Notes under the pieces: model-generated
What the model saw: only the letters and a program-made list of their open reading frames with translations
What the model was told of the DNA's origin: nothing
The model's database searches: none
Position numbers and translations under genes: made by a program
Assembly (NCBI RefSeq): GCF_022352215.1
Contig: NZ_JAKRWF010000002.1
Coordinates: forward strand, 62,001-126,000
Source of the DNA: Flavihumibacter cheonanensis
Lineage (GTDB): Bacteria; Bacteroidota; Bacteroidia; Chitinophagales; Chitinophagaceae
DNA length: 64,000 bases
Direction of reading: 5' to 3'
Shown here: one piece after another, positions 10,990 to 20,894 of the stretch
Position numbering within the stretch: the stretch's first letter is position 1
Layout: each line of letters opens with the position of its first letter

Positions 10990-11006
10990 AAAAAATGCAG
11001 CAACTA

Positions 11007-11037
11007 TTTTGAAATCAGAAAAATTAAACCATCTTTG
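11007..11037 (+). promoter_or_regulatory. Promoter of the AAA-RtcB leader transcript
   Basis: A -33 TTTTG (11007-11011) and a -7 CATCTTTG (11030-11037) are separated by 18 nt, close to the Bacteroidetes spacing, with a single mismatch from TAnnTTTG. Transcription would begin around 11041-11044, giving a leader of about 185 nt before the ATPase start codon. Confidence 0.55.
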
Positions 11038-11064
11038 CATTCACAAATTTTAAAAACAAGAACA

Positions 11065-11157
11065 ATGCCCCGCTTTAACACATATCGTAAACATACCGCT
11101 GAAAGCCTTTCTGGCTGTGCATTTCAGCGCGGGGTGTGGTTTGTTCCCAATCGTTAA
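11065..11157 (+). CDS. 30-codon leader ORF upstream of AAA-rtcB
   Basis: ATG at 11065, TAA at 11155-11157. The peptide starts MPRFNTYRKHTAESLSG and ends WFVPNR. It has no signal peptide and no run of one amino acid that would point to classical amino-acid attenuation. The coding sequence coincides with strong RNA structure and its start codon falls inside the longest stem, so it may be a regulatory leader peptide. It could also be a chance frame within a structured RNA. Confidence 0.35.
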   Translation: MPRFNTYRKHTAESLSGCAFQRGVWFVPNR

Positions 11158-11177
11158 GCGAACAACTTCATGATATT

Positions 11178-11204
11178 AACCCCGCCGAAACAGCGGGGTT
11201 TTTT
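11178..11204 (+). terminator. Rho-independent terminator in the leader of AAA-rtcB
   Basis: Arms AACCCCGC (11178-11185) and GCGGGGTT (11193-11200) with a 7-nt CGAAACA loop and a T-tract to 11204. It ends 23 bases before the ATPase start codon, so transcription must read through it for the operon to be expressed from the upstream promoter. Confidence 0.85.
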
Positions 11205-11227
11205 ATTTCGATTCAATCAAATTTTTT

Positions 11228-12349
11228 ATGAACACAATTTTAGCATCCGCTATTCAGCGGATAAGAAATATCGTACGCTCTATCGTGACCAGATCAGCAG
11301 CTATAAGCGGAGATGATCTCTTCTACGATAATTATATTGAAGTGAAATCTTTCTATGTAAAACGGTATGGATCCATACCATCAGTGTTATTCATCAATCA
11401 TATGAATACCAGTGAAGTGCTGCACTATTTATTGAGCGGCACAGCCGGAAAGATTTTGCAGGTGTATCAACGCAGTTATTATAACTGGAAGGATCAGAAA
11501 AAGGAATTCAGTCTAAGCATCCTTGAATTGGAAGGCGCTATACTGATTGAACTGGGCAGAGATTACGCAGAAATTTTATTCCCACAGGAAGCAAATCTGC
11601 GAGCCGAAACTATACTGGAATCCATCATTGGATTTCGTATTGCAAAGCAGGAAGGTCAGCATCAGATATACATTATCAATTCCACTGGTTATGGATTAGA
11701 TCTGAAACCTTTAAACATCCAACCCAGCGAACTGGATCTGGATCTCTACTACAACGATGATTTCATCGAAGTGGATGCAAAGATCCAGGAACGATTGCTG
11801 AAAGAGCAGGACAAAGGAATTGTTTTGCTGCACGGATTACCAGGTACCGGTAAAACAACCTACCTGCGTTATCTGATTGGAAGAGTGAAAAAGAAAGTAT
11901 TATTCCTCTCTCCTTCTGTTGCAGGCAACCTGATGAATCCGGATTTTATGGATCTGCTGATCGAACACCCGAATTCCATCCTGGTGATTGAAGATGCGGA
12001 GAATATTATCCTGGATCGTACCTATCAATCCAATCATTCTGTCAGCAACCTGCTGAACCTGAGTGATGGTTTGTTGAGTGATTGCCTGAATGTGCAGATC
12101 ATCTGTACGTTTAACAGTGCACTGCACCTAGTGGATCCTGCCCTATTAAGAAAAGGGCGACTGATTGCCCAATATGAATTCGGCAAACTGAGCGTCGACA
12201 AAGCAAAACAACTGGCTGGTAAACTGAACATCGAAACAACTATCGATGCACCGGTTTCACTGGCAGAATTATTGAACCCGGCTGCTACCAACTACGAACC
12301 TAAAAAAACACAAGTAATGGGGTTTCGCAGGGTATTGGCCACGAATTAA
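11228..12349 (+). CDS. AAA+ family ATPase, RtcB-linked
   Basis: 373 residues. Residues about 1-185 form an N-terminal region without a recognised domain. The AAA+ module (about 195-345) has Walker A GLPGTGKTT, Walker B SILVIEDAE, sensor-1 CTFNS and an arginine-finger-like DPALLRKGR. It resembles BCS1/FtsH-type AAA cores rather than sigma54 activators, so it is not an RtcR homologue. Its stop lies 4 bases before the rtcB start. By position it may remodel RNA or RNP substrates, or activate RtcB, but this is inference. Confidence 0.8.
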   Translation: MNTILASAIQRIRNIVRSIVTRSAAISGDDLFYDNYIEVKSFYVKRYGSIPSVLFINHMNTSEVLHYLLSGTAGKILQVYQRSYYNWKDQKKEFSLSILELEGAILIELGRDYAEILFPQEANLRAETILESIIGFRIAKQEGQHQIYIINSTGYGLDLKPLNIQPSELDLDLYYNDDFIEVDAKIQERLLKEQDKGIVLLHGLPGTGKTTYLRYLIGRVKKKVLFLSPSVAGNLMNPDFMDLLIEHPNSILVIEDAENIILDRTYQSNHSVSNLLNLSDGLLSDCLNVQIICTFNSALHLVDPALLRKGRLIAQYEFGKLSVDKAKQLAGKLNIETTIDAPVSLAELLNPAATNYEPKKTQVMGFRRVLATN

Positions 12350-12353
12350 AAAC

Positions 12354-13553
12354 ATGGAAAATAAATTACCATTGGCCGTAGAGGAGTCTCTGAATACACA
12401 GGGTATCCGCTTCAATATATATGGCCGGAAACAAATTGAAGAATCTGCCCTGCACCAGATGTACCAGGCTGCGCGCTTACCCATCAGCGTGGCCGGTGCT
12501 CTGATGCCGGATGCACACCACGGTTATGGATTACCGATAGGAGGTGTGCTCGCCACCAAAAATGCAGTCATACCCTATGGCGTGGGGGTTGATATCGGCT
12601 GCCGCATGGCGCTGAGCATCTTTGCTGTAAAAGGGTCTGTACTCAACCAGAAACCCGGTTTTTTTGAACGCATTCTGGATGAACAAACCCTGTTTGGAAG
12701 CAGCAAACAGTTTGACCGTTCACCGGATCATGCGGTTATGGATAACCGGCTCTTTTTCGAGATCCCTTTTCTCAAGTATCTGCACACGCGGGCCTGGAAA
12801 CAACTGGGCAGCTCCGGAAGCGGCAATCACTTTGTGGAATTCGGGATCGTGAAAATTGAGGAGAAAGACAGCACACTTGGCATGCCAGCAGGTGAATGGC
12901 TGGGATTGCTGTCCCATTCAGGTTCCCGTGCCTTGGGGGCTAAGATCGCGCAGCATTATACAAAGCTTGCGATTTCCACCCGCCGCTTGCAGGGGGATAT
13001 CAAACACCTGTCGTGGTTATACCTTGAAGAGGAAGCAGGTGCTGAATACTGGGCTGCCATGAACCTGGCTGGTGATTATGCTGCCGCCTGTCATGAACTG
13101 ATTCACAAAAAAATTGCGAAGGCAATTGGAGAGAAACCAGTAACCACGGTGCAGAACCATCACAATTTTGCCTGGAAGGAAATCATCAACGGGGAAGAGT
13201 TGATTGTGCACCGGAAAGGTGCTACACCGGCGGGAGAAAATGTACTGGGAATCATTCCTGGTTCCATGACTGCTCCCGGTTTTATTGTGAAAGGAAAAGG
13301 GGTGGCAGCATCTTTGCAATCTGCTTCACATGGAGCAGGTAGGCAGATGAGCCGTCGAGCTGCGAATGAATCCATCACCAAATCTGCCATGAAGCTGGCC
13401 CTGAAAGAAGCAAAGGTCAGCCTGATCGGCGGAGGTGTGGATGAAGCGCCGCAGGCCTATAAAAACCTGGAAGAAGTGATGGCCTGTCAAACGGATCTTG
13501 TATCTATTTTGGGTAGCTTTCAACCCAGGATCGTGAAGATGGACGGACATTAA
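12354..13553 (+). CDS. rtcB: RNA-splicing ligase RtcB
   Basis: 399 residues, near the size of the E. coli enzyme. RtcB joins RNA 2',3'-cyclic phosphate or 3'-phosphate to 5'-OH ends using GTP and Mn2+. Visible family residues are MPDAHHGYGLPIGGV, the metal site VGVDIGCRM (Asp, Cys), GSSGSGNHFVEFG, LLSHSGSRALG, HNFAWKE, the RKGATPA loop and SHGAGRQMSRR, in which the His is the guanylylated residue. Second gene of a tight operon (4 bp after the ATPase, 10 bp before the aldo/keto reductase). No archease or RtcA gene is present in the window. Confidence 0.95.
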   Translation: MENKLPLAVEESLNTQGIRFNIYGRKQIEESALHQMYQAARLPISVAGALMPDAHHGYGLPIGGVLATKNAVIPYGVGVDIGCRMALSIFAVKGSVLNQKPGFFERILDEQTLFGSSKQFDRSPDHAVMDNRLFFEIPFLKYLHTRAWKQLGSSGSGNHFVEFGIVKIEEKDSTLGMPAGEWLGLLSHSGSRALGAKIAQHYTKLAISTRRLQGDIKHLSWLYLEEEAGAEYWAAMNLAGDYAAACHELIHKKIAKAIGEKPVTTVQNHHNFAWKEIINGEELIVHRKGATPAGENVLGIIPGSMTAPGFIVKGKGVAASLQSASHGAGRQMSRRAANESITKSAMKLALKEAKVSLIGGGVDEAPQAYKNLEEVMACQTDLVSILGSFQPRIVKMDGH

Positions 13554-20500: not shown

Positions 20501-20724
20501 GTATCAGTTATCCGCGGGGGCAAGGGCTGATACGTCCTGGGCTTGCAGAGTCTGCAGTCCCGATGCGTGTTGCCTATGCCGGTACCTTACGCGGGAAGGT
20601 CCTAACAAAACAAAATCGGCAGGTATCTGGCTTTGCGCCTAAGCACATTACAGTTGCCCGTCAGCCCACGAGTTACACGTGGTTCCCTATTAATCAGCAG
20701 AAGTTGCACCTGCTGAACCGATGT
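20501..20724 (-). promoter_or_regulatory. Cobalamin riboswitch upstream of nrdB-nrdA
   Basis: Read on the minus strand, the aptamer (about 20722 to 20615) has P1 ATCGG/CCGAT, P2 GCAGGT (20713-20708) with ACCTGC (20624-20619), the AGGGAA box (20688-20683), the L5 segment CGGGCAACTGTAA (around 20660-20648) and the B12 box GCCAGATACCTGCC. This is the conserved core of Bacteroidetes cobalamin riboswitches. The distal hairpin GTATCAG/CTGATAC (20533-20501) carries TTGCCC in its loop (20523-20518), complementary to GGGCAA of L5 (20659-20654). That is the expected L5-L13 kissing pair. The hairpin ends 20 bases before the nrdB ATG, pointing to translational control. Confidence 0.88.
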
Positions 20725-20894
20725 TGTGATGACAAGAACTGGACACGAAAGTAGGGGTAAGGGAAGGAGGAAGGGGTTGAATCTTTTTCACACCTGTGGA
20801 AAGAAAGCCCAAACTCAGATGGAGTGCAGACTTAGCAATAAAGTAATGTAAGGGAAAAGGAAATCTTCGATAGGGATTCAGTAAATTAACAGCT
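20725..20894. other. Intergenic region between divergent riboswitch and DUF5690 gene
   Basis: Must hold the promoters for both the riboswitch transcript (minus) and the DUF5690 operon (plus). The best minus-strand -7 candidate is TACTTTCG (20755-20748), two bases from consensus. No convincing plus-strand box was found. Confidence 0.35.

Follow-up and report, generated by a model that had tools for sequence, protein, structure and literature searches.

Why should an RNA-repair operon be preceded by a leader that holds a short reading frame, competing hairpins and a terminator? The question is raised by a locus in 64,000 nt of the genome of Flavihumibacter cheonanensis (contig NZ_JAKRWF010000002.1, positions 62,001 to 126,000; this whole stretch is called the window here), where such a leader of about 160 nt stands before the genes of an AAA ATPase and of the RNA ligase RtcB. 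We consider it very likely that the leader is a ribosome-mediated transcription attenuator whose peptide serves as a census of tRNAs. The evidence is computational throughout and establishes the element, its pairing, a conserved open reading frame (ORF), the census, the codon at which the census ends and the set of genes downstream. An earlier note on this DNA had proposed an attenuator, with a discrete small RNA as the alternative.

Alternative pairing in a conserved leader

The leader ORF (11065-11157; ATG at 11065, TAA at 11157; 30 codons, peptide MPRFNTYRKHTAESLSGCAFQRGVWFVPNR) and all other parts of the locus are on the plus strand. The start codon is overlapped by arm A (GCCCCGC, 11067-11073), the 5′ side of a stem called P1. 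The 3′ side, arm B (GCGGGGT, 11129-11135), can pair either with A or with arm C (ACCCCGC, 11179-11185) in an antiterminator. C in turn can pair with arm D (GCGGGGT, 11193-11199) in an intrinsic terminator (11178 to 11205), which consists of the C:D stem (11178-11200) and the T tract after D. Another hairpin, P2 (11098 to 11128), is predicted in the loop of P1; by eye it is kept in copies from the genus and is variable elsewhere. The earlier note had described the ORF with its ATG in P1, the two repeats B and C, and a terminator before the ATPase gene; the description is right, and B and C were found at the positions it gave. Sequence, conservation and covariation indicate that A:B, B:C and C:D are mutually exclusive, with the terminator last. 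Their single-helix energies are −11.6 kcal/mol (7 pairs) or −12.9 kcal/mol (9 pairs) for A:B, −12.4 kcal/mol for B:C and −13.1 or −13.8 kcal/mol for C:D. Since these values are close, the arms are plausible competitors. The leader stretch folds with −51.5 kcal/mol, and none of 200 shuffles folded as well (z −2.73). The terminator is recovered by a scan of the window region; by itself it is weak evidence because shuffles yield similar numbers of sites (5 per 3 kb in the scan, 2.7 with a standard deviation of 1.7 in shuffles).

The pairing is maintained among relatives. In an alignment of 82 matches from 84 sources (A2; leaders L051 and L058 gave no match at E ≤ 0.001), in whose construction P1 and the terminator served as guides and B:C did not, the B:C bases are paired in 90.0% of cells, compared with at most 57.2% when the arms are slid. 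For P1 the values are 76.0% and at most 43.1%. Cells with changes on both sides of a pair number 15 for B:C, against 2.7 ± 1.5 in shuffles, and 41 for P1, against 15.3 ± 3.3 (0/500 in both cases; the shuffles do not keep relatedness). A smaller alignment made without structure (A1) agrees on both pairings. It holds 20 of 30 leaders and leaves out L008, L045, L084, L051, L079, L080, L013, L061, L082 and L058, among them divergent leaders, and was thus a favorable set for the first pairing counts. RNAalifold on the first alignment returned the terminator alone, missing P1 because P1 is mismatched in some copies. In sum, a structured, attenuator-like leader is confirmed, and the covariation of P1 and of the antiterminator supports its interpretation as an attenuator, as the earlier note had it.

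The distribution of the element was followed with a covariance model (R1) trained on 20 leaders, the window copy among them, all taken from upstream of ATPase genes. It matches the window at 11053 to 11207 with 101 bits. At E ≤ 1e-5 the element occurs in 127 of 394 genomes of the family (Chitinophagaceae), representing 49 of 101 genera; at E ≤ 0.1 it occurs in 10 of 15 genomes of the genus. DNA similarity detects the leader in 5 of these 15, with the same operon behind it every time. Relatives of the ATPase are present in 145 of the 394 family genomes, and other ATPase genes are preceded by leaders that differ in sequence and are alike in plan. A sample of the order (198 genomes) yielded matches in 14 family genomes, including the window genome, plus one weak match; a sample of the class (198 genomes) yielded the window genome and one weak match at E ≤ 1e-4. 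Both weak matches outside the family were treated as chance, no relevant genes being seen by eye in about 1.5 kb of the ORF lists on each side.

A promoter-like pair noted earlier before the leader also recurs. The predicted promoter (11007 to 11039) consists of TTTTGAAA (11007-11014) and a −7 box, CATCTTTGCA (11030-11039), with a TTTGCA (11033-11038) that we take to be of the Bacteroidota promoter type. Of 135 leaders, 133 have a TTTG at a distance of 20-50 nt upstream of the start, compared with 6.5% of base-shuffled stretches. A scan of the leader region for sigma-70 promoters found none.

The leader peptide and the boundary near codon 20

The composition of the peptide was studied in two sets. 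The discovery set comprises 84 leader matches less 8 outside the retrieved loci, that is, 76. The held-out set comprises 63 copies, none of which entered the census counts or the model; ten of them (L042, L053, L055, L069, L077, L078, L088 and L193-L195) belong to loci retrieved earlier, and for a few, another copy from the same genome was among the training sequences. One leader in each set lacks an ORF under the rule used for picking starts. To the 75 discovery ORFs were joined 14 further leaders listed early on. The ORF is 27-34 codons long in 136 of the 137 leaders that have one, and has 30 codons in 84, under a rule that favors an ATG near model position 13 and a length of about 30 codons. 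Among held-out ORFs, 61 of 62 start exactly at that position. Frames +1 and +2 stay open across 26 codons in just 12 and 7 of 53 leaders. Start and length are kept, the peptide sequence much less so, with a loose consensus (HI.....FSP.G.Y..CGAC) recurring in many copies. The ORF is probably translated.

What the peptides share is variety. The window leader contains 18 of the 20 amino acids, 14 of them within codons 2-20, and all 20 are present in 13 of 147 leaders. As a null, each alignment column was permuted among leaders; most of these tests exclude leaders outside 27-33 codons. The 61 discovery leaders of less than 60% identity contain on average 17.1 different amino acids, compared with 15.66 ± 0.15 after permutation (0/2000), and the excess persists (z 8.3) in 42 leaders less than 42% identical to each other. 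For orientation, 30-residue segments drawn from 32 ORFs of the window of at least 250 residues, which are not curated genes, average 14.75 (n = 509).

The excess is confined to the first two-thirds of the frame. In the discovery leaders, it amounts to z 11.4 for codons 2-20 and z 0.3 for codons 21-33. For the combined 85 leaders (<60% identity), codons 2-20 hold 14.05 different amino acids, compared with 12.26 ± 0.13 (z 13.9, 0/1000), and codons 21-33 give z 0.6. The chance that a codon adds a new amino acid exceeds the null at each of codons 3-20, and at codons 21-29 is around it or slightly below. A replication test, fixed before the rest of the family was searched, gave z 10.4 for codons 2-20 of 41 held-out leaders (<80% identity to each other and to earlier leaders) and z 6.5 for the stricter 21 (<60% identity); the corresponding values for codons 21-33 are −0.1 and 0.2. 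Off-frame controls over codons 2-20 gave z 1.4 and 1.7. By amino acid, Phe, His, Lys, Pro and Arg show the largest excess in codons 2-20, followed by Tyr, Asn, Gln, Glu and Asp, and Thr and Cys show almost none.

The same boundary emerges from RNA folding. Each leader was folded as far as arm D while a stalled ribosome masked 17 nt, counted from where its P-site codon begins. In 53 discovery and 60 held-out leaders, which gave nearly the same curve, C pairs upstream with a probability of 0.74-0.81 for stalls at P-site codons 1-16. The probability falls to 0.51-0.57 at codon 18, 0.28-0.32 at codon 19 and 0.15-0.21 at codon 20, and is below 0.07 from codon 23. The discovery leaders alone gave 0.74-0.77 at codons 1-16, 0.51 at codon 18, 0.28 at codon 19, 0.13-0.15 at codons 20-22 and at most 0.06 from codon 23. 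Footprints of 14 or 20 nt move the curve by one codon. Because the hungry A-site codon is one past the P-site, the last useful codon is about number 19-20. Folding of the RNA and composition of the peptide, measured separately, agree on a boundary near codon 20. The earlier note had supposed that a stall at the leader start frees B; the start does qualify in the simulation, and so do later positions up to about codon 18-19.

The operons behind the leader

The ATPase gene (11228 to 12349, 373 aa, PF00004) lies behind the leader, followed by rtcB (12354 to 13553, 399 aa; PF01139, E 1.4e-74), as the earlier note had read them. In comparison with solved structures, the AAA part of the ATPase resembles AFG2, proteasomal ATPases and BCS1. 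In a related locus (L005 of genome G008, about 1668-1991), the ATPase gene has a large internal deletion that removes most of its middle; the leader and the rtcB frame are kept. The window genome has another gene of the RtcB family at G000:C110:257649-258425.

The window genome carries a second copy of the element (G000:C164:390328-390490), which precedes a gene for a YkuK-type RNase H-like protein (PF04308) and one for a slipin-like protein (PF01145, Band 7). Apparent tRNA remnants, seen by eye between these two genes (minus strand, 5340-5580 of L140, i.e., G000:C164:384000-391000), were called neither by ARAGORN nor by Rfam; they are possibly a decayed tRNA array.

The same kinds of genes recur throughout the family. 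In the discovery set, 68 of 76 copies (a count inflated by the set having been found partly via the ATPase) have at least one of the listed genes in the downstream stretch retrieved: RtcB in 31, the ATPase or its N-terminal part in 42, YkuK in 30, slipin in 27, two or more tRNAs in 30 and Ro60/TROVE in 4. Four of the other eight had less than 620 bases retrieved (three of these, L060, L062 and L091, stem from ATPase loci), and L146 has a single tRNA. Listed genes follow 61 of the 63 held-out copies, and one of the remaining two had 144 bases retrieved. R1 recovers YkuK-slipin and RtcB loci although it was trained at ATPase genes; since the training leaders were all ATPase-linked, the matches before other operons are independent support. 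None of the identified recurring genes is biosynthetic.

A Ro60-like gene lies, by similarity, between the leader and a tRNA array in L162, L164, L168 and L191; in L164 alone, Pfam identifies its TROVE and vWA domains. Sequence similarity thus places a link between Ro60 and the leader in relatives, not in the window genome, where Pfam did not find the Ro60 (TROVE) family in any of 241 contigs. RtcR (PF06956) was likewise not found in the window genome and was found in an E. coli control. The earlier note's statement that neither gene is present holds, therefore, for the genome. Other genes also occur between leader and array: L169 has a transporter of the MatE family there (939-2354, by Pfam), which a gene of L172 (1980-3395) resembles, judged by its first residues only.

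Arrays of at least three tRNAs are found in 65 genomes, with up to 18 tRNAs each, the commonest being Gln(UUG), Phe(GAA), His(GUG), Lys(UUU), Asn(GUU) and Arg(ACG). The rank of an amino acid by its enforcement in the leaders correlates with the frequency of its tRNA in arrays: Spearman 0.73 (p 3e-4) for 24 arrays, 0.68 (p 0.001) for 65 arrays, and 0.69 (p 0.005) when the comparison is limited to 15 amino acids with similar base rates. It should be noted that arrays and leaders share genomes, so that the correlation is not fully independent of phylogeny. Thr and Lys illustrate the trend: with near-equal expected presence, they have z 0.2 and 6.2, and occur in 1 and 43 arrays, respectively.

What the leader would sense

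In the absence of stress, the ribosome would translate all 30 codons to the stop; near the leader end it would cover B, so that C:D forms and transcription ends. Should one of the tRNAs needed between codon 2 and about codon 20 be lacking, because a nuclease has cut it or because it is uncharged, or should translation be slowed in another way, the ribosome would stall upstream and leave B free. B would then pair with C, the terminator would fail and the ATPase-RtcB genes would be expressed. Read-through upon stalling is a prediction of the folding simulations. In an untranslated leader, P1 would hold the leader start together with B. This is clearest in the window copy, where the probability of C pairing upstream is 0.25 when untranslated, compared with 0.58-0.84 for stalls at P-site codons 1-18. 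In relatives, spare tRNA genes, the YkuK-type gene, the slipin gene and Ro60 stand behind the same leader.

Several results weigh against the census attenuator. Asp and Ile do not occur in the window leader at all, and Gln, Val and Trp occur there only from codon 21 onward; its one His codon is codon 10. The second copy in the genome has two Ile codons before codon 21. In leaders generally, no clear excess is seen for Thr, Cys, Ile, Val and Ser (z 0.2-1.3), and the prediction that Lys would be present in more than 90% of held-out leaders failed (34/41 and 17/21). The null is imperfect: permutation leaves some effects of relatedness in, seven control protein stretches range from z −3.0 to 2.4, and off-frame stretch +1 over codons 21-33 also deviates (z 3.7). 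At E ≤ 1e-5, where filters lose weak matches, no copy was found in 267 of 394 family genomes, and three discovery leaders (L155, L173, L177) are without the listed genes in 5.5-6.6 kb downstream. Once the terminator is complete, C:D wins at equilibrium (mean 0.84), hence the switch must act kinetically, before D is made. Finally, on average over the family, B:C is also favored in an untranslated leader as long as D has not been transcribed (0.72 and 0.75); P1 is therefore a weak guard except in copies like that of the window.

Which signal would stall the ribosome is a separate matter. Translation stress, and loss of tRNAs in particular, is the natural signal that we infer. The downstream genes point to tRNA damage, as do the known control of rtc by tRNAs (PMC7790460) and the spare-tRNA operon of Anabaena (PMC10272220). 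An attenuator responding to general amino-acid starvation is unlikely: the same codons would stall on uncharged tRNA, as they do in classical attenuators, but the genes that recur (RNA ligase, spare tRNAs, the RNase H-like protein, slipin and Ro60) are, where identified, not biosynthetic. Where a drug stalls the ribosome is determined by local peptide motifs, for which one codon of each kind is not needed, and a sensor of drugs would not be expected to enforce the amino acids that match the array tRNAs. For these reasons we hold it quite unlikely that the leader is a general attenuator for translation stress of the toiL or whiB7 kind that mainly senses ribosome-targeting antibiotics, its diversity serving to catch many stalling drugs. 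Such an assignment would have precedents in upstream ORFs (uORFs) that respond to multiple drugs (PMC12121999) and in the induction of the Anabaena tRNA operon by translation-targeting antibiotics (PMC10272220). Signals from tRNA damage and from antibiotics are not exclusive of each other.

Two further explanations do without a census. If the peptide itself acted, as an arrest peptide or small protein, the variety of its amino acids would be a by-product. The loose consensus would suit this, but the excess at z 8.3 is found in the 42 leaders of less than 42% identity, many of which are without the consensus, and it ends at codon 20; an active peptide is thus very unlikely. Bacterial Y RNAs carry a tRNA-like module. 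The discrete structured small RNA of the earlier note, Y-RNA-like or a substrate of RtcB and ending at the terminator, is not borne out and seems to us extremely improbable. Four of the 76 discovery loci do have a Ro60-like gene behind the leader, and a short transcript ending at the terminator would be expected, though under either reading. Against it, an Rfam search of this leader and of the leaders at four other loci gave no match, ARAGORN calls no tRNA within the window, and the conserved frame with its frame-specific census needs translation; what is conserved is the features of a translated leader and a terminator. A Yrl-type Y RNA in particular was rejected, with Rfam and ARAGORN negative in the window and Ro60 (TROVE) not found in the genome.

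Known regulators were compared as well. Attenuators of the trp, his and ilv operons repeat the codons of the amino acids whose synthesis they control, and known attenuators of this type monitor just one amino acid or a few. They are alike (Trp_leader, RF00513; His_leader, RF00514) in having a short ORF, exclusive hairpins 1:2, 2:3 and 3:4, and a terminator, and in that a stalled ribosome frees arm 2, as proposed for B here. The present element differs in avoiding repetition ahead of arm B and in the genes behind it, which are those for RNA repair and for tRNAs. An excess of different, not repeated, amino acids means that the codon runs marking attenuators of amino-acid operons are not seen. 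With no codon run for a product and Rfam scores below the cut-offs, a trp/his-type attenuator was rejected: the leader stretch has no Rfam match at the gathering threshold, its best weak match being Trp_leader (30.9 bits, cut-off 41), with His_leader at 17.2 bits (cut-off 49). A T-box riboswitch was rejected too, since that family is absent from the Rfam matches at the gathering threshold and at E up to 10. Control of the operon by RtcR was discarded because RtcR was not found in the window genome.

Closer in logic is the toiL uORF of E. coli topAI, where stalls at different codons are described as giving the same output under many translation stresses, a property of one uORF that whiB7 shares; toiL differs in having eight codons and in occluding a ribosome-binding site, with Rho, and the available part of the report describes neither a census of amino acids nor repeated use before several operons (PMC12121999). 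The Salmonella rsr-yrlBA-rtcBA operon shares RtcB-based repair triggered by broken tRNAs and the Ro60 partner (rsr). Its sensor is a protein, the CARF-domain activator RtcR, which binds tRNA fragments (PMC7790460), whereas the sensor proposed here is a leader RNA that the ribosome translates. In Anabaena, a spare tRNA operon (trn) is reported to be induced by translational stress; the TrcR regulon also holds rtcB, and genes changed in the trcR mutant include a slipin and an AAA ATPase, as behind the leaders here (PMC10272220). TrcR is described there as a ribbon-helix-helix repressor acting at promoters, in contrast to a cis attenuator repeated before each operon (PMC10272220).

We find it fairly likely that the leader defines a cis-encoded regulon, in which one leader has been copied before unlinked operons and a near-pangram peptide samples the tRNA pool before the antiterminator arm, weighted to tRNAs that arrays replace and RtcB could mend. 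Such a regulon would act as an alarm that needs no protein, directed at toxins that cut tRNAs and at nucleases of phage defense. The switch would be that of the trp/his attenuators with the opposite rule, no repeats, apparently evolved to watch most tRNAs at once. This composition rule may be new in principle; neither the element nor a one-of-each leader was found described in a search of titles and abstract openings, with subscription journals mostly outside its coverage. The census attenuator points to a way in which bacteria lacking RtcR could detect damage to tRNAs, and offers a testable role for RtcB, YkuK, slipin and tRNA arrays in Chitinophagaceae. Amino acids used once each as far as a structural boundary are a statistical signature by which other leaders can be screened, and the element may give a simple reporter of the state of the whole tRNA pool.

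Other regulatory features were noted in passing. A mini-ORF, M-x-T-x-V-M-K-stop (often MRTRVMK), occurs in 20 of 92 stretches upstream of ATPase genes (e.g., L032, L037, L046 and L074). It is located just before the ATPase gene, with AAATAGTTA/TAACTATTT repeats in several loci (by eye), and looks like a second, separate leader. An additional terminator with CCCGGTC/GACCGGG-like arms, about 170-260 nt past the first, is seen in L034, L044, L065, L071, L073, L140 and others, and is possibly a tandem attenuator. Elsewhere in the window, Rfam identifies a cobalamin riboswitch on the minus strand (20601-20737).
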